Of a DNA stretch of 64,000 bases, positions 1-18,266 are shown piece after piece (position 1 is the first letter of the stretch; every line of letters starts with the position of its first letter). The position numbers were made by a program, and so were the translations under genes. The stretch spans positions 62,001-126,000 of the forward strand of contig VKHL01000079.1 in NCBI GenBank assembly GCA_015146655.1, read 5' to 3'. The notes under the pieces were generated by a model. The model ran no database searches and was not told the origin of the DNA. It worked only from the letters and a program-made list of their open reading frames with translations. This DNA comes from Ochromonas danica (lineage: Eukaryota > Sar > Chrysophyceae > Chromulinales > Chromulinaceae).

Positions 1-71
1 GATAGGATTACAACGAGTCAAAAAGAGAAGAGGAATGATGTAAAACAAAATGGTTGTAAATAATGATGTAC

Positions 72-521
72 CTCTAGTTTATGTAAGGCAGGTAGACTAT
101 CATAGAGTTTGCCAGGTGCAACTTGTAAGATGAGGCGATGTTCAACGTCTAACATGATCTTACGAGACTCGCGGTAATTACGAATGAGATCATGTAAGGT
201 GTCACAGTTTGGCACCCAACCAATGAGTCCCACAGCAGGTGAGACAGGAATGACCGCAAAACGCTGAATCTGGAGGTCATCCCCATTAACTCCCGTGCGA
301 CGATCGTGATAGAGCAAAGCATTTACAAGACCAAAGAGTTGCATAGCTCGTTCATCTTGACGCAAATCCTCATGACCCTGAAGGAAGAACAACAAAGCCG
401 CCATGAGGATGAGCATCATGAGCATGAGCATGAGCATGAGAATGACAACAACAACAATAACAACAATAACAATAACAACAACAATAACAACAACAACAAC
501 AATAACAATAACAATAACAAT

Positions 522-559
<38 letters not shown>

Positions 560-3500
560 CCAACAACATGATAACGATTATGATGATTATGATCACCTTT
601 AACAGGAAAGCAAACTCTTGTCCTTCTTCACCAATTACTCTTAATCGACGAGGACGTTGTTTCGATCGAATAACTTGAATAATATTATTGAAATTCTTAA
701 TTCGTATAGCATTAGTACTCACTGTATAAGTACCTGGAACACCTAAATCCAAATCCGTTGCACTGAACAAGGCTGGTGAAGATGATTGTAGATCAAAGGC
801 ATTAAAGTGTGGTAACTGTGTATTAATACGTTTGAACATGGTATAGTAATAATCCCAAGCTTGTGCTATCATCATTGTTTCAGGTTGATTTTGACCTGTC
901 TTTTGTGTTGGGATAGGTAAACCTTTCTCTGTCATTGCCTTTTGATAAGCTTTCAAGTTCTCCCAAGCTTGGAAGATTTCATGACGATATCCTTCTACAA
1001 AGGCAGCTTCACGAATCGTCGTGGGACCTAATTCAATAAGTTCATGCAATGGTACTAACGTATGAAGCATAGCTTGCACATTACCCTCTCCAAAATACTG
1101 CCTGCTTGCTTCTTCTAATGCCCAATGCCATTTCTCTTCCCATAGAATCGCAATACGAACTAATTCCTGAGAGACCATGAGAGCTTGATCAATGAGCTTG
1201 TTGCTATGTTGACGAAGACTATTCATTAGACTCTCAGCTGCCTCTTTGCGATCACCTAAAGGACTCTTCAAGGCCACTGATAATGGATAGACTAATGCTT
1301 GTGCATGTTTGACACCAATACGGATCAATAGATTATGTAATAACATACGAGTGTCTTGATCAGGATGATCAATACGAGCAATCAATTGTGGTAGAACACC
1401 TAACCAATTATCCAATGGTACAGATTGTAAACCATTTTGTAAGGCAGCATTAACCTCACTGTGTTTACCACAAGTAAACCATAGACTAAGAATACAAAGC
1501 ATATCTTGAGTCACTGAAGAACTAAATCGTCGAGTACCAAGCATTAATGCACGCATAAAACCTTTCACTGCATTAGCAGCTAACATGTTGATCTGGTCTT
1601 TCGCGAAGATGGGGATCTTTGGAGATTTGTTTCCACTATTACCATCTGTCAAGCTATTGTTGTTGTTATTGCCAGTGGCGGTAGCGGTGCTTTTCTTGCC
1701 AAAGGCTCTTGCTTCTTCAATCGCACGATAGTTGGACAATCCCCACTGATGCCATGCCTGATAACTATTGGGATCTACTAGAGTTGCCTTTGAATACAAC
1801 GACAACACCTCCAAACGGGTAGAACTATCCACAGTTTGTCCAGGATCAAGAATAGCAACTTTCCATTCTCCTAACTTGAGGAGACAGCTCAGATAGGAAT
1901 GATCACCTTCAATGGAGGAGGTTGATCGAGAGTTACGAACTAAACTCTCCAATCCTTGTAAAGCACTCTGTTTCTCTCCTATTGACCACTGTTGCTTCAA
2001 CATAGCAAACTGGATGCGTAATTCCATATTGGCTTCATCTTCTGAAAAGGATGAGGCAGAAGCAGCAGCAGTCGACGATGTGGAGGAGTAACGTCCACTG
2101 AATGCTGACTGTTTCGTCATGGCCAAAACGCGATCTGCTAATGTCAAGTTCTCTCCATTGCGACAAAGAGAGACAAAGTCTAGCCAGGTATCCAAATCTT
2201 CTTTCTCGGAGACCACCATACGTCGTCCATTTAATAAATGCTTCCAATAAGGAATAGCGGCTCTTCCCGTAGAAGCACATCCGCGAATACGTCGGCGCCA
2301 CTTCTCAGTCAACATAGCTTTCCGACGAAGAGCTTCTTGTTGAATAGCCTGTATGTTAGGATTGGTGCTATTCACTGTAGGGGCACCAGAGTTGGCACTG
2401 TCAGCATCTGAAGCTGCAAGATGGTGAGAAAGTGTTTCATGGCGATTATTACGTCGTGGTGCAGAGATCATCATGTCCAAAAGCTCAGATTGATTTTCAT
2501 AGTTGATATCAGGACTTACGAACGTCGTCATGGGGCTATTACCACTACCAGCACCAACGGGAGGAGGAGAAGATGACGCGGGCGAAGTTAGCACACTATT
2601 ACTATTGATGGCATCGCGTAATGATCCATTACCATCTTCGATGAGATTGGCTTCCTTTAGAAACATCTTATACTCTGTAATCTCTTCTAATTCAGAGCAT
2701 TGTTGAGCCATAATCAATGGCATATAAGCACGACCATATGATTCAGTCATTAAAGAGGAAATGGTTTTATCCAAACGTTTCCTGGTCTCTTCCAACAAAC
2801 GACATGATTCTTCATAATTCTCATTATGAACAGCTAAGACTGCCTTTAAGAATGATCCATCGACATTGTCAGGTGGTAGTTGATTGACACAGTTATCCAT
2901 TAAAGACCATTCATTTAATGACCATGCAGCACGTGCTCCAATGACCGCAGCTTTGGTATGAGTATTGCTTTTAGAAGCTTCACACTCTACACGCATACGG
3001 TCTAGATGCTCTTCACACAATTTCACCGCTTCTTCCCATCGACCTAACGATTCCAAACATTTCATCTTCCCTGCTATAGCAATGCTATCTCTAGGATTAA
3101 TCGCAAGTTTTTCATCATACTTTTGTAAGGCTTCATCCCAATAACCTAACTTAGCTAACCAACTCTCTTGTACAGTATAAAACTCTTTTAATTCAGGATA
3201 TTTCTTTTGTATCTGAGTAGCTACTTTCAATAATCCTGAAGCAGCTTCATATTGATCTAATTTCTTATTGATATTAATCAAATTCTCAAAACAACCAGCA
3301 GGATTGTTTTGATATTCAACTTCACGATAATGTAATGCTTTCGCATAAGCATGTCCCTTTTGTGCATGTTCTGCTAAGATAGACAAGCTGATTGGTAATG
3401 CTTCTGCATCATGTTCCATAAATTCAGCTAAATTTAATAAATGTTGTAAGATATCCGATGGGATGGTGGATGAGCGGAAAGCAGTTTGTAATGCACGGAC

Positions 3501-6500
3501 AAGACTTTCTTGGTAGCTTTCACTTAATTCATGCCAACAAGAAACAAATGCTGCATGGAAAAGTTCTCTAGCTATAGGTGGATAAGCTTGTGCTAGTGGA
3601 GCACAAGCACGCAGTGTAGGGGAGGGACTTTCACGTAACAAATCAACATTAAATCTCCATAACCATTCATTCCAATCATTCGCTGTACTACGTTGTGAAA
3701 CATCCCATGATCGTGCTAGTTGTTGTTGATTAAGAAGAAGCTTTGGAACACCTGCATAGAGATTACTATTGGTATTGTTATAAGTCATTGTCATACGATC
3801 TTCTAGATCATCATGAATCATTATCCCACTTTTCATAATACCTACGAGATTACTTTCTTCTTGATGACGATATGTAATCGGACTTCCTTCCTCTAAATCA
3901 GCATAACTCATCTCATCCCATAAACCAGAACGAATTAATGCTGAGACCTCACGATATGTTGAAGTATCAATCCCACGACCATCTGTTGAACGTAAAATTA
4001 AACTATCAAACTTTAAGATACGTGGTCCACACTGTTGGGCAAGGATAGTCAAAGTATTCATACACTCTGAATAGATCTCAAACGTTGGAGGGTAGTTAGC
4101 CGCAAGATATTTCAAGATTGATCGACATAGAACATGAACTAACGTACTAAGAATGACATGACTTTGCTCTACTACTGCTCCTTTCGATCTAGAGACAAGA
4201 TATCGTAATGTCTGGACAACTAAAGTCTGTGTTGGAAGCGATGCTTCCATTCCTAAATCTTGTAACTCCGTCATTAACTTGCAAAGAGGAGGAACAAAGA
4301 GATGAATATGTGGACGTAAAGCAACTCGTAAAACGCGTAAGGAGTTCAAAATCTCTTCTAATGGTTTCAACATCTGAGGGTCAATACGATAGAGTGCAGG
4401 TGTAATATCATCAGGAAGAGTGAGACTGGATAGTAAGAGAGGCAAGAGAGTGGGAAGATAGGAGGTGAAGGTGTCTGCAGTAGTCATGGCGACTTGTTGA
4501 ACAATGGCTAAAACATGTTCAAGGTGTTCAGACCAATAATCACGTAGAATCTCTAAGATAGCAGGAAGGTACGGTGTGACATAATGTCCAATAATCGCTA
4601 CTAACTGGGATATTTGCTGTAAAATACTCTCACGAAGACCAGAAGTGGACTTCTTGACAATCTATCAATGGCAAAAGTCAATCAATCAACAGTGTCAACA
4701 CAAGTATCAACAACTACTCCAACAATAAAGCGGATATTTACCTGAAGGAAATAGGGTACAATAAGCTCTAAGAAAGGCACACATCGTACTCCAAGACTAC
4801 CAAAGATTTGAATAATTGTTTGTGTTGCTGTAGAATGATGAACACTAAGAGATGGATCTTGTAAGATTCGTAACAATGCAGACAACGCAACTCTCGGGAA
4901 GAAATCAGAACTACTTGGTGTCTGTTTGTTCAACATGAGCTTTTCATGTGGTGGGTCACTAATTGCTCGCATGACAGACTGCTCATACATGAAGAGATGA
5001 GAAGGTGCATCAGCGTTATCACCTTGTAATAGGATATCTGATCGAATGATATCTTCATTCTCTAATCCACCACTACTGGTAGTGCGACGATCTACACCAG
5101 AAGTGCGATACCCATCACCAGCATCAGGTCGGTTAGTCGCGGAGAAACTTTCTGTTCGTTCCCGTTCTTTTTCTTTGTTTGTCCCTGTTTCCGTATGTCC
5201 TTGACCTCCAGCAGCACGTACATGATCACTTAAACTACTTGCCAGTGTGACTGCCATGGCTTTCTTGTCACCGCCTCCTTTATTAAGAGCATTTCCATCG
5301 CCTTCACCATCTTGAACATGCTTCTTCTTATTCTTACCAATATTATGCATGAATGAGACGATGGCAGCATAACGAGAAGGTTCCAAAGCACCCAATAAAC
5401 CCAATGTGCGTAATAACTCCAATCGAAAGGACATGGGTTTATGCATCGAGTTTCGACACAGCAAATCCAAGGTCTTCGGGAGAAGCTGTGGATATTGCAA
5501 GTAAGGTCTGACAGCCAAGCCTGTTGACTTGCTGAATTGTCCTAATGTCCTCACAGCAACCTCTTGCTTCTTCAGCGATGATGAATCAAACATATTGCTA
5601 ATAATAACAGGCAATAAGGTGTCAGCATACGGTGTCAACTCGTGTTGCAAGACAACAGCTAGTTCTCCCACTGTTTCCAATGCTGAAGTTGTAGCTCGAA
5701 CATCTAATCCTCGTAAAGGCAGAGATTCTAGTAAAGTCTGCATGATAGGCTTGACCAAGAAATGGAATTTGCCAAATTTCATAAAGCTACATAACATCGC
5801 AGCGGCTTCTTCTATCATGCGGTAATCTGGACTATTGCGAAGCTCAGATAGGAGGCGATGAAGATGTGCACGAATAGGTGGCAAGACAGCGGCAGCATTC
5901 TTAGAAGAAAGACGACCTAGGGTCTTCAATGCTTCTAATCGAACTTCAAAAGCTTCGTCTGCGAGGAGTAACATCACTGTCTCGATATGATGAGGTCGAG
6001 CCAAATACTTGTCGAAATCTTCAGTCAAAGATCTTAACACAGCCAATCGAACCAAGGAAGAGGTATCAGAGACAGTGACCTCCAGTAAGCGATTGACTAT
6101 TTCCTCCACTGCAGCTGCTGTGGGGCCTTTACATGCACAAACCCCGACAATAGTAGCAACCATCTTGGCACAAGTCACAGCTGCTTGCTGCCGCACCGTG
6201 TAATCATCAGAACTTAGGTATGGAATGACACTCTGCTGCAAGATGAAGATGAGGTTGTGATAAGGAATGGATAAGGATCCCAAGGTCTTCAATGACAGAA
6301 GCACAATTTCATTCGATTGATTGCTCACAGAAGGGCCATCCATCTCAGATCCCAAGCCAAGTCCCAGCCCAATAGCAGCTACTCCCATACTGGCGGTATT
6401 GGTAGTATTCTTTGAAGCAGATGCAGTATTGCTTGACTTGGAAAACTGCATGAAGGAAAAGGCTTTCTTAGCTCTCGACATCTTGGCAGGCGTGGCAGCT

Positions 6501-12654: not shown

Positions 12655-14588
12655 CTAACCAAAGAGTTTTCTAACCAAACTATTCTCTCCACAGAAAGTC
12701 TGAGGCTTCTTGTAGTTCATCGCCACGTTAAGCTTCTTTTTCTTCTCCAAGTCATGCTCTATGAGAGTGCCATAGGTCTTTCCAATCACTGCCTCATCGA
12801 TAACCACAGGCAAAGCAAGGGGATTTGTTGACTCAACATCACGGAAACTAGCGGACAATTTAGCCAGATCGAAGAGATAATGTTGCTCCAATGCCTCTAG
12901 CTCCCATAGTGAGGAGTCCAAGGCATGGGCTTTCTCCAAATCTTGCTCTTCAGTAATATCGAAGTCTGAGCCAGAAGGGCTTTCGCTCTTCTTCTCACGG
13001 TGGAGAAGCGTCAAACATTGCTGATGATGCCTCATGAGCCACTGAATTTGGAGAACACAGAAATGCCCCAAAGGAGCTGAGCATTGTAATGCCAAGCCTG
13101 CCAAACGTTTGATAAAAGAAGCGACGAGATAGGCTGGCAAGTTAGCCGATCGTAATGACATATGCAGCAACTTCAAGAACTTGCCATGATACTTGGCATT
13201 GAAGACTGACACTGTACATAACTTGTATATAGAGAGAAAGAAGTTGGGATAATCGAGGTTGTGTTCCACAATCAACTGGAACAAACTCTCCAATGCTAAG
13301 ATGGCTACAATTCCTCCCAAGTCATAGCTACGAGTAAGATAATCCGCAAGAAGTAAAGGATTGGCAAGATAGGGCATCACATGTTGGGGTAGATGCTTCA
13401 GAATAACCTTTTGATCGGCAGCGGAGAAGGGCAGGGAGAGGACTAGCAGCCATGTTTGACTGAACACTTCCCGGTAGTGATCCACAGAGCGTAACTTCGT
13501 GCCGATCGACGAGTTGTTACTCAACCGAGGACGCTTTTTTGACTTCAGTAAGATAGAAGAAGCCCCACGCTTATTGGTCTTAACTCCTTCCTTCTTCTTC
13601 TTACCTGCCGCTTCTTCTTCATCACTGCTGGCATCATCATCCAAGACTTTCTTATTCTGACCAGCGCTCTCGTCAGATGTTGGGGCAGGAGGAGGGAGAA
13701 AAAACTCTTCATCTTCTGGTACTTCATCAGAGAAAGGAATGACACGAAGAATATCGAGCACATTCTTCATTCGCTTGACCAGGTCAGTCGATGGGCCAGA
13801 CGACACTTCTTTGATATCCTCCTTTAACTCTTCTGTCAACTCTTTCAAAAGACTAAGTCCAAAATAGGCACAGTCGTGATATTGGAAGACTTCATCCTTC
13901 AACAGTAATAACAGATCAACATCGACTTCTTCTCCTCCATTGATCAAGGCTTGGAAGAGAGCACGATAGGTCACCAAGCCAAAGCGAATACCTTGTATTT
14001 CCTCATCTTCACGGATAGCAACATCCCACTTCAAGAGCTACCAACAAGGGAATCGAAGGTTATAATCCTCTCATACAGAGCAGCAGTGAGTGAGGGGCAG
14101 TGATTGACTTACTTCCAATAGGGTGCGAATGGAGAGAGCATGAAGCCAGTCAGTCTCCACAGAGGATAACGCCTTGCATAGCATGTCTATGAATTGATTG
14201 TATTGAGTGTTAAACCACTTCTTCAACTTCGTGGTGGCAGCTTCATTGGGCTTCAAAGTGGCCAATTTGTTGTTCTCCAGGTAGTCCACATACAATCGTC
14301 TATCCATTGAGACCAGCTCATTAGGAACACTTCTCCAAGGATCATTGGAAAGAATGCTCACCTCAAAGAATGAATAGCAGCGATGCGAACCTTCTTGGCC
14401 TTGTCATCATTTGTCACAGTCTGTAGTATGTGGAGTAAGTCAATGTTGTTTTATGACTTCAAGGAAAAGAATGGTCAAATGAAAAGTATTGGACTTACCT
14501 GGTAGATAGTTTTGATATTGTTAATATTCTTAATATCATCAATAGCAGCGAGCTCTAGCTCATGAATTTGACGAATCTCCTCCTCCAT
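12655..14588 (-). CDS. NOC4: Nucleolar complex protein 4 (NOC4), small-subunit assembly
   Basis: NOC4 pairs with NOP14 during 40S subunit maturation. Four exons keep frame: 14588-14499, 14420-14362, 14299-14113 and 14037-12655, coding 572 residues. The C-terminal CBF/MAK21 domain is clear: HYREVFSQTWLLVLSLP, PYLANPLLLADYLTRSYDLGG, FFLSIYKLC, NLPAYLVASFIKRLAGLAL and SLWELEALEQHY, the last typical of NOC4. A middle segment at about 215-270 is acidic then Lys-rich. The N-terminus MEEEIRQIHELELAAID is a helical start preceded by no better ATG. The third intron (14361-14300, 62 bases) is the least certain splice. Its neighbour NSUN5 also acts on ribosomes. Confidence 0.92.
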
Positions 14589-14944: not shown

Positions 14945-16174
14945 ATGTCAGAGACTTGCACGGTGGAAGTCTATGAAAATCAACTGTACCATCGATCACG
15001 AGGATGGATTGCCCATCATGAATTACCATTCACTCTCAAACCATCCAATATCCCTTGCAAACCTTTAGAAGAAATATCTCTTCCTAATGCAGACTGGATG
15101 TGGATGACCAATTGGAAAACCAATAAGATGCCTGGTGTGACGGACAGTGACGGCTGGGAATATGCCAGCAAGTTCGCACGATTCCAAAGTCAAGATCGTC
15201 CTCCTAAACCTGAAGCACGATGGAGCCGTGCTAGAAGACGACTATGGATTCGTATCATGCGCAGAGATGCCACCATCAAGTCTGCGGACCTGTCCAAAGC
15301 CTTGTCCAAGGTCCAGCTGGGTCTCTCTAGTGTCCACACAGCACGAGTCAAGATTGAACAAGTGTCTAAACAAGCACCTGATGCTATTGAAAGTGAACAA
15401 ATGGTTTCATTAGCCATGTCAGTTCAAAAGAATATTGCAGATTTATTGAGTGTCCTCGATCAAGCAGAGAAGCAACCTGGTCGTACTGATATCTCTCCAG
15501 CTGCTGTCAAGAAGTTAAGAAATGAGATCTTACGAGAAGAGCAAGCTATTATACGAGCATTAGAAAAACAGCAGCCTGAGATCACACCATTAAATGGATC
15601 GAGTCGCTCTGGTGGGAGACGTCTCGAGACTAACGGTGGTAATGGATCATCGTCCACAAATGATGGCCATGTAGTCGCTCAAAATGTGTCATCGAAAGGT
15701 GGTGTCCTTTCAGGCCAAAAGGGAGCTTTTGACCCACGAATCTTCAGTACGCCTTCAAATGGAAACCTCTTGGATGGAGAGCAGGATGGAGTTTTTGTTG
15801 AGCGATCTATTCAAGAACAGATCATAGACCAAAAACTGGTTGCCATTGACGAGGCCACAATAATGCAGGAGATTATTGAAGATCGTTCAACAGAGATTCT
15901 AAAAGTTCATAAAGGTTTGGTTGAGTTGAATGAGGTCTTTGTGGAGATTTCTAAACTAGTCAAGGAACAAGAGGTAGGAGTTATCATTTCTTCCGCTATA
16001 ATACCCTTTGCTGCTCTAATCTGTCACCTTGACTTGTTGTTGCTTCTACTTTAGACCGATATGAATCAAATTTTAGGCAATACGGATGATTCACATACTC
16101 GAACCAAAGAAGCTTATGCCCATATTTTGGAAGCTAACCGTCTTCATGCTCAGGGCAATTGTGTTATCAGCTAA
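14945..16174 (+). CDS. DysF-domain Qa-SNARE (syntaxin-like) ending in a CaaX box
   Basis: Two exons, 14945-15973 and 16055-16174, give 382 residues. Residues about 7-106 form a dysferlin/peroxin (DysF) module: VEVYENQ...RGWIAHHELPF, then DADW-like NADWMWMTNW, GWEYASKF and the RWSRARRRLWIRIMRR end. A helical region (110-205) resembles a syntaxin N-terminal bundle. A Qa-type SNARE motif (about 300-370) reads RSTEILKVHKGLVELNEVF...KLVKEQET, with the zero-layer glutamine kept in KEQE. No transmembrane segment follows; the protein ends GNCVIS, a CaaX prenylation motif. Inference: a membrane-fusion factor held by a farnesyl-type lipid. DysF modules occur in ferlins, Pex23-type peroxins and TECPR1; I do not know this combination from well-studied organisms. 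Skipping the intron would remove half the SNARE motif and the CaaX. Confidence 0.88.
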
Positions 16175-16796: not shown

Positions 16797-18266
16797 TCAG
16801 GCGGTCATTTCGGTGTGAACTTGAGGTTGGATAACCACCTCAGGATGCATGACAATCCCAGGCAATGCTGCTGCGACTCCGGATGAAGTAGCAGTCGGCG
16901 CTTGAGATTGCTGATGGTCGGTAATAGTTGAGAGACGAGTTGATCGTCTTTCCGTGCCTTGATGCAGCTGATTAGACATATGAGGTTGCTGTATTCCAGT
17001 AATACGTCGCACAGAATTGTTATTTCCTGCCATTGGACTGCCAGCCATACTGCCGTGTTGCAAAGTGATTGTACTAAGGCGTGTACTTTGCTGTCTAGCG
17101 GAGATTTGCTGACCGAAGCTTCTTCTTCGACTCTTGTCGGCAGATTTTTCTTTATCCTTTTCCTTCTCTTTATCATCGTCTTTCTGATTGCTTTCGGCCG
17201 CACCAGGGGAAGCAGGAGAAGAGGCCTCTGGAGGTGTGTCAACAAGTGTTTTCACAGTATTGGCTCTACTAAAGAAAAAGTCATAAACATGTCTTTGGCT
17301 GGGAGTGGATGTAAGTGCTGGTAGAGCGACAACTTTGGTCGATCGAGCAGACATTGGAGTTAGTTTCTCAGGTGTTGTCTGAGAGACATGAATATTAGTT
17401 GAAATCTCGGGTAGTGTGTGTGCCATCGAAAGTTGCCGGGAAAAATAGGCATGATCTGAAGCATTGTCTACATCACCTTGCGCATCCCGAGGACTAAAGC
17501 TGCTAACACTAGCACGTGGCGTGGAGCGATCGGTGGTGCTAAACTCACCGCTATCACGAATATTACCAGATTGAAGCCACACTTTTCCCAAGATTTTGTT
17601 CAATCCTGCAGATGACTGAGTCTTTCTTGTAGGAGGAGAAGATAGATTTGCTCCCAGCATTGAATCCAGCTGTGATCCTATTGGTTCCAAGGTAAGTTTC
17701 TCTTGCGATGAGTTCTCTTGATCTGATGGAAGTTTGCTATTAATAAGTCAAGAAAATACAGGGTCAATCGCAGAAAAAAAATCAAAAGTCTAAATCAACA
17801 AGCTCTCTCACCTTGAGATATCATAGGGAACTAACCCTTCGGGCGGCTGGGTAAGGACTACAGTGGAGATATCAATCGAAGCTCGCCGTTTGGGTTGCAT
17901 TTGATGTGCGGGGGTGTTTGCAGCAATAGCTTCTAACACCGAATCTTTCCGAATAGACAGACACCAACCAAGAGGATTCGTGGGATGAGAACCGAGTTCC
18001 AAGCTTTTCAACAGACAGTCAACAATGGTGTTGATTCTCTTCTGTGACCTTTGCTCCTCTGTTTGATCTTTGCCCATGTCATTTGGTAAGAATGGCAGTA
18101 AGGCCGAGTAGTCTAAATATAGATGGATAACATCCTCATTGATACCCACAACGTGGCAGATTATCTCTAAACATTGAAACTTTGCTCGAAAGATAATGAA
18201 CAAATCAGTCTCAATCTGAGATATCATCGTGATTGCATTGTATAGAACATATGCTTCGTTAGACAT
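16797..18266 (-). CDS. Unrecognised 464-residue protein with disordered tail
   Basis: Two exons, 18266-17812 and 17736-16797, join in frame (TCA-AG/C-AAA). I do not recognise it. The first ~100 residues look like a helical folded domain (MSNEAYVLYNAITMISQIET, then hydrophobic stretches around CLEIICHVVGI and LYLDYSALLPFL). From about residue 120 it is low-complexity: Ser/Thr/Pro-rich with several R-R/K-x-S basophilic phosphorylation-like sites (RRASID, RRSFG, RRSTRLSTI), and a Lys/Asp/Glu run (DDDKEKEKDKEKSADKS). RxSTRLSTI occurs twice, about 50 residues apart. The tail suggests a regulated scaffold, but that is a guess. The start is the first ATG; the frame continues upstream only after a stop. 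Confidence 0.7.

Follow-up and report, generated by a model that had tools for sequence, protein, structure and literature searches.

A predicted Qa-SNARE that joins an N-terminal DysF domain to a C-terminal CaaX box

Introduction

Whether fusion pores can open only when SNAREs are anchored by membrane spans has been debated mostly on the basis of engineered constructs. A gene in a stretch of Ochromonas danica DNA (the window, 64,000 nucleotides in all) raises the question for a natural one. An earlier note, made from the DNA letters of the window, read this gene as a syntaxin fused to a DysF module and closed by a CaaX box. Is the gene built as read, is its unusual ending kept in relatives, and what might such a protein do? 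Sequence and structure models give the predicted protein, here called DysF-SNARE, the order DysF, Habc-like bundle, linker, Qa SNARE motif and CaaX box, without a membrane span.

A single gene encodes the fusion

The coordinates proposed earlier, 14945..16174, proved right: splice reconstruction places the start ATG at 14945 and the stop codon at 16172-16174, with one GT-AG intron between them. The spliced product of 14945-15973 and 16055-16174 has 382 residues with the C-terminus GNCVIS, and it matches the public EukProt protein P0001 letter for letter over its full length. P0001 does not count as independent evidence because it may be a gene model from the same species. The features are as follows.

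14945..15973, forward strand: exon 1, codons 1-343 (open reading frame and splice reconstruction; identical to P0001)
14951..15265, forward strand: predicted DysF domain, residues 3-107 (phmmer, profile, AF2, Foldseek, Trp/Arg ladder)
15281..15565, forward strand: predicted three-helix bundle, residues 113-207, Habc-like by position
15572..15790, forward strand: predicted disordered linker, residues 210-282 (pLDDT < 50), variable in length and sequence among members
15851..15973, forward strand: N-terminal part of the SNARE motif, residues 303-343 (phmmer, AF2, profile)
15968..15970, forward strand: codon of the central (zero-layer) Gln342, invariant in 28/28 aligned members
15974-16054, forward strand: intron of 81 bp, GT-AG, phase 0, directly after Gln342-Glu343
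16055..16174, forward strand: exon 2, residues 344-382 and stop, with the rest of the SNARE motif and the CaaX box (identical to P0001)
16160..16171, forward strand: CaaX box CVIS, Cys379-Ser382, with Cys at -4 in 36/36 complete homologues

Exon 1 carries the DysF domain, the three-helix bundle, the linker and the SNARE motif as far as the residue after its central Gln, so that splicing is needed only for the last 39 residues. Because everything from DysF through Gln342 lies on one uninterrupted exon, the fusion of DysF to the SNARE is not a mis-joined exon. The possibility raised in the earlier note, that the SNARE exon belongs to another transcript, is countered by the SNARE core lying, up to Gln342, within the DysF exon; transcript-derived homologues, described below, also carry the whole protein. 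In four homologues (P0002, P0003, P0006 and P0021) the sequence seems to continue into an intron at the point where the window gene has its own.

The build recurs in a divergent family

We searched 5.8 billion proteins in three rounds and collected 64 distinct homologues. Of these, 36 have the whole SNARE motif, and all CaaX and tail counts below are based on them; the remaining 28, which break off sooner or continue into other sequence, do not enter those counts. The central Gln is present in all 36. A tree of 31 of the complete members has long branches, with 19 of its 28 inner branches well supported, and pairwise identity among these 31 aligned members falls to about 29%. The same DysF-SNARE-CaaX build is, as far as the protein sequences tell, kept over deep divergence in the family.

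Two members come from named organisms, Ochromonas (taxid 2985, Chrysophyceae) and Ochromonadaceae sp. CCMP2298. P0005, P0011 and P0058 are complete, have CaaX ends and bear names or sources from MMETSP, a transcriptome project. Where the sources name the homologues at all, they call them 'hypothetical protein' or give a bare gene or transcript id. Annotation surveys may have missed the family because of these uninformative names and because Pfam hmmscan matches neither the DysF nor the SNARE domain in the window protein. Since a word-based protein search may miss very distant forms and most matches are unnamed, we do not claim that the family is confined to stramenopiles. None of the 72 stretches that matched our patterns in a scan of 84,980 prokaryote species, nor of the 91 that did so in viral contigs, was confirmed as a relative.

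The N-terminal domain has the DysF fold

The DysF module recognized in the earlier note is borne out by comparison with solved structures. A single-sequence phmmer search matches TECPR1 (8p5p, E 1.9e-4) and dysferlin (4cah, E 1.7e-3), a 28-member profile reaches dysferlin at E 1.1e-9, and Foldseek aligns the AF2 model with 8p5p (E 4.2e-6, target-normalised TM 0.75); residues 1-110 form a block of this model with pLDDT 83-96. To compare sites we aligned 30 of the 64 homologues, excluding fragments and near-duplicates. All 30 keep the equivalents of four stacking Trp of TECPR1 (Trp116/118/122/138) and of three of its four stacking Arg (Arg159/161/165), while the Arg167 position is Met in 25/30, possibly through a one-residue register shift. 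The domain is therefore placed, by sequence and by model, among the DysF domain proteins, whose fold stacks Trp and Arg.

Pfam and NCBIfam scans of single members were of little use. Over 28 members at E <= 0.1, PF06398 (Pex24p) was found in 16 and PF05739 (SNARE) in 3; on recheck, PF06398 covered residues 4-106 in 5/6 members and exceeded its cut-off in only 1. A second AF2 model, built for the distant member P0043 from 10 sequences (mean pLDDT 57.5), reproduces the helices, with a DysF region that is not confident.

The predicted lipid-binding tip is more basic than that of TECPR1

Since the DysF domain of TECPR1 is the best structural match, DysF-SNARE could be a responder to membrane damage, its DysF domain reading sphingomyelin on broken endomembranes as in TECPR1 and its SNARE motif patching the site. 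According to PMC10476172, changing any of twelve tip residues of TECPR1 (R76, W77, C84, L88, L89, S90, I142, D143, K152, K153, W154, C157) abolishes recruitment. Two positions speak for the damage reading: the Trp154 position is Trp in 23/30 members, window protein included, and the Trp77 position holds Phe or Tyr in 14/30. Each of the eleven tip residues other than Trp154 is identical in no more than 10/30, so that among the 30 aligned members only Trp154 is often identical and the sphingomyelin-reading set is not found. The Leu88 and Leu89 loop falls in gaps in 30/30, the Asp143 position is K/R in 28/30, and Ile142 is replaced by Ser in 29/30. Cys occurs in 0/30 at both the Cys84 and Cys157 positions, the latter being K/R in 23/30; Arg76 is matched by Arg in 3/30, Lys152 by Lys in 6/30 and Lys153 by K/R in 12/30. 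We regard the damage-responder reading as improbable, the analogy with TECPR1 in repair being weakened by this alignment of binding sites, and the roles in membrane repair, peroxisomes or autophagy put forward for DysF-SNARE are guesses.

The DysF domain of Pex30 binds phosphatidic acid (PMC12101078 and PMC12101077), the placement of Spo73 needs a basic loop (PMC4863634), and recruitment to damaged membranes was not seen for the inner DysF domains of dysferlin and myoferlin (PMC10476172). The more basic tip of the aligned members suggests binding to an anionic lipid. Because most of the residues that bind sphingomyelin in TECPR1 are absent and the tip is more basic, a Pex30-like reader of anionic lipid (phosphatidic acid) is a likelier predicted role for this domain than a sphingomyelin damage sensor.

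A Qa-type SNARE motif follows a three-helix bundle

Beyond what the earlier note described, a predicted three-helix bundle lies between DysF and the SNARE motif, as in syntaxins. For both models, Habc domains rank among unrelated bundles, and the Habc reading is for this reason not specific.

The complete SNARE motif spans residues 303-375. Its single-sequence phmmer matches are Tlg2, Sso1 and syntaxin-1, and the family profile reaches syntaxin at E 1.5e-13; among the 54 chains listed at E <= 0.01 in the profile search, the natural SNAREs are Qa syntaxin types. Phe at layer -3 marks a Qa-SNARE, and Phe332, like Gln342, is invariant in 28/28 aligned members. The motif, with its central Gln and this Phe, is accordingly assigned from its residues to the Qa type, as the earlier note had read it. 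Because the profile matches spread over syntaxin 1, 7, 13 and 17, Sso1/2, Vam3-type proteins (among which we take the 'SNAP receptor-like protein' of 5buz/9zcs to be Vam3) and Tlg2, we claim no Qa subclass. Rows for spike proteins in the profile search fell on the helical bundle and were ignored as coiled-coil matches.

A CaaX box replaces the membrane span in every complete homologue

The CVIS-then-stop ending of the earlier reading stands: P0001 ends identically, and all 36 complete homologues close on a CaaX box. Residue -2 is aliphatic in 36/36 (I 28, L 3, V 3, M 2), residue -3 is T, N or S in 8/36, and the last residue is S in 19, C in 7, M in 4, V in 2 and A, L, T and Q in 1 each, so that S, C, M, A, Q or T stands there in 33/36. 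By these residues, the very C-terminus bears the C-a-a-X signature of prenylated proteins. A C-terminal transmembrane helix, usual though not universal for Qa-SNAREs, is found in 0/36 complete members, the best 19-residue hydropathy of the last 40 residues being <= 0.52 in each; homologues with a transmembrane end, which would have spoken against the original reading, are thus not among them. Judged by their predicted tails, none of the complete members that we found departs from this unusual ending.

Could the missing span be an artefact, a further downstream exon adding a hydrophobic tail? Splicing from weak GT/GC sites in exon 2 can be contrived so as to encode a hydrophobic tail (the highest mean hydropathy is 2.15 over 17 residues), but by eye these alternative donor sites look poor, P0001 ends CVIS, and the CaaX box recurs in 36/36 complete homologues, among them the transcriptome-derived P0005, P0011 and P0058. 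Splice reconstruction and the homologue ends led us to reject alternative splice ends that restore a span, and we give the artefact almost no credence. It is also very unlikely that the box is real while its Cys bears another modification, such as an acyl group. Certain span-less SNAREs are acylated on cysteines; here, however, the Cys sits exactly at -4 with an aliphatic residue at -2 in 36/36 and belongs to no cluster, no other Cys being present in the last 15 residues of any of the 36 complete members and thus no second Cys before the box.

Sister proteins P0007 and P0041, which are 90% identical, end CAIL and CSIS, so that the two members of this one close pair may differ in predicted prenyl group, geranylgeranyl in one and farnesyl in the other.

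Other SNAREs and the prenylation machinery of the same genome

We searched the genome for SNAREs by exon and scored only the best candidates, which yielded four other Qa-type frames (L001-L004). All four have hydrophobic ends, with 19-residue hydropathies of 2.77-3.29 as against the <= 0.52 of the complete DysF-SNARE members, and their PDB matches at the thresholds used are confined to Qa-type and engineered t-SNARE chains, that of L004 being weak (best E 5.8e-4). A PF14523 search of this genome gave no matches, but PF14523 matched nowhere, and absence is not implied.

Genes for the beta subunits of farnesyltransferase (E 1.6e-92) and GGTase-I (E 3e-55) are present, as are prenyltransferase alpha-type (PPTA) repeats at G000:C79:23317-23601 on the reverse strand. 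With these prenyltransferase genes, the cell can prenylate. The genome also has matches to the ICMT and Rce1 families, but their Pfam families match in 5/14 and 11/14 prokaryote controls as well, and we therefore do not regard either gene as firmly identified. The PPTA repeats lie on the same contig as the window, outside it and ~53 kb from the DysF-SNARE gene.

The Ykt6 of this genome (L028, G000:C107:72131-72301; best E 3.7e-36 against solved YKT6 chains) ends CCAVL. By its last residue this is a geranylgeranyl-type box, unlike the CVIS of DysF-SNARE.

Relation to known systems

Like the Qa-SNAREs syntaxin 1, 7 and 13, Tlg2 and Sso1, DysF-SNARE has a predicted three-helix bundle, a linker and a Qa motif with its central Gln; it differs from them in its N-terminal DysF domain and in the CaaX box that replaces the transmembrane helix. 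Ykt6 is likewise a span-less SNARE with a CaaX end, but it belongs to the R-SNAREs, carries a longin domain and has two adjacent Cys (CCaaX), whereas DysF-SNARE has a Qa core, a DysF N-terminus and a single Cys, a second being found in 0/36. Vam7 is a span-less Qc SNARE that carries a PX domain and lacks a prenylation signal; it resembles DysF-SNARE in that an N-terminal lipid-binding domain brings the SNARE to the membrane, a role that is predicted in our case. TECPR1, Pex30, Spo73 and the DysF-bearing ferlins share the DysF fold with its Trp/Arg stacking ladder; we know of no SNARE motif or CaaX box in any of them.

The literature searched (titles and abstract starts, mostly non-subscription) held no description of a protein with DysF plus SNARE or of a CaaX Qa-SNARE, in agreement with the earlier statement that no protein with this set had been described. 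Closest in wording were papers on Ykt6 (PMC6464585) and on a mosquito CaaX-box protein whose binding partner is a Plasmodium syntaxin with a membrane span.

Proposed mechanism

We consider it probable that DysF-SNARE is a prenylated Qa-SNARE of new architecture, recruited by two weak membrane contacts, its lipid tail and its DysF domain, and acting in fusion. From established biochemistry and the residues of the box, Cys379 would be prenylated, mostly by farnesylation across the family, after which Rce1 would cut the CaaX box and ICMT would methylate it. One prenyl group is a weak membrane anchor. In Ykt6, lipid can likewise be attached to a second Cys, which precedes the box (PMC6464585). Because a single prenyl group is weak and a second Cys is missing throughout the complete members, DysF is the obvious second contact; it would bind head groups in the target membrane, probably of an anionic lipid such as phosphatidic acid, and the choice of membrane would therefore need both contacts. 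The protein would cycle reversibly between the cytosol and the target membrane. Once both contacts are made, the SNARE motif would join Qb, Qc and R partners, which would allow a tethering complex to drive fusion, with the three-helix bundle gating the protein as in other syntaxins.

Some assays with lipid-anchored SNAREs show fusion, whereas in others such proteins fuse poorly or inhibit fusion (PMC5247469). Because this evidence is mixed, we think a fusion role the likeliest, with inhibition or tethering as its main rival. In the latter, which is possible though rather unlikely, DysF-SNARE would occupy Qa sites or bridge membranes, its lipid tail falling short of full fusion. Such a role would accord with the blocked or stalled fusion seen with lipid-anchored SNAREs in several assays (same source), and the long disordered linker and extra domain suit a regulator; against it, the SNARE motif is highly conserved, the central Gln and a number of C-terminal positions included, and a pure tether would have no need of it.

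A broader form of the fusion reading, to which we give about even chances, is that this is a lineage-wide natural prenylated Qa-SNARE, span-less in every complete member, that finds its membrane by coincidence detection, its DysF domain reading a lipid while its prenyl tail inserts, and for which a span is dispensable in fusion. If true, it would provide a t-SNARE arm that could be attached to a membrane and released again, and a natural case of fusion without a Qa span. A Qa-SNARE family whose lipid-anchor signal is kept over deep divergence makes the anchor question testable on a natural protein, and DysF, a lipid reader in TECPR1 and Pex30, would here be joined directly to the fusion machinery in one chain.

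Genomic surroundings

The long frames flanking the DysF-SNARE gene, 12655-14403 and 16797-17747, lie on the opposite (reverse) strand. The first is a divergent neighbour whose frames look like a nucleolar NOC4-type protein, as we take it to be. Farther off, the long frame at 18-4661 of the window (reverse strand), presumably a TOR-type kinase, contains a run of I/V/L codons, and a repeat-rich intron may sit there. Three other PF06398 (DysF-region) matches occur in the genome, L007 (G000:C162:16306-16653), L008 (G000:C17:270574-270891) and L006 (G000:C28:40413-40736); two lie inside very long frames of 2878 and 2225 aa, which we presume to be VPS13-like, and one in a 783-aa frame.
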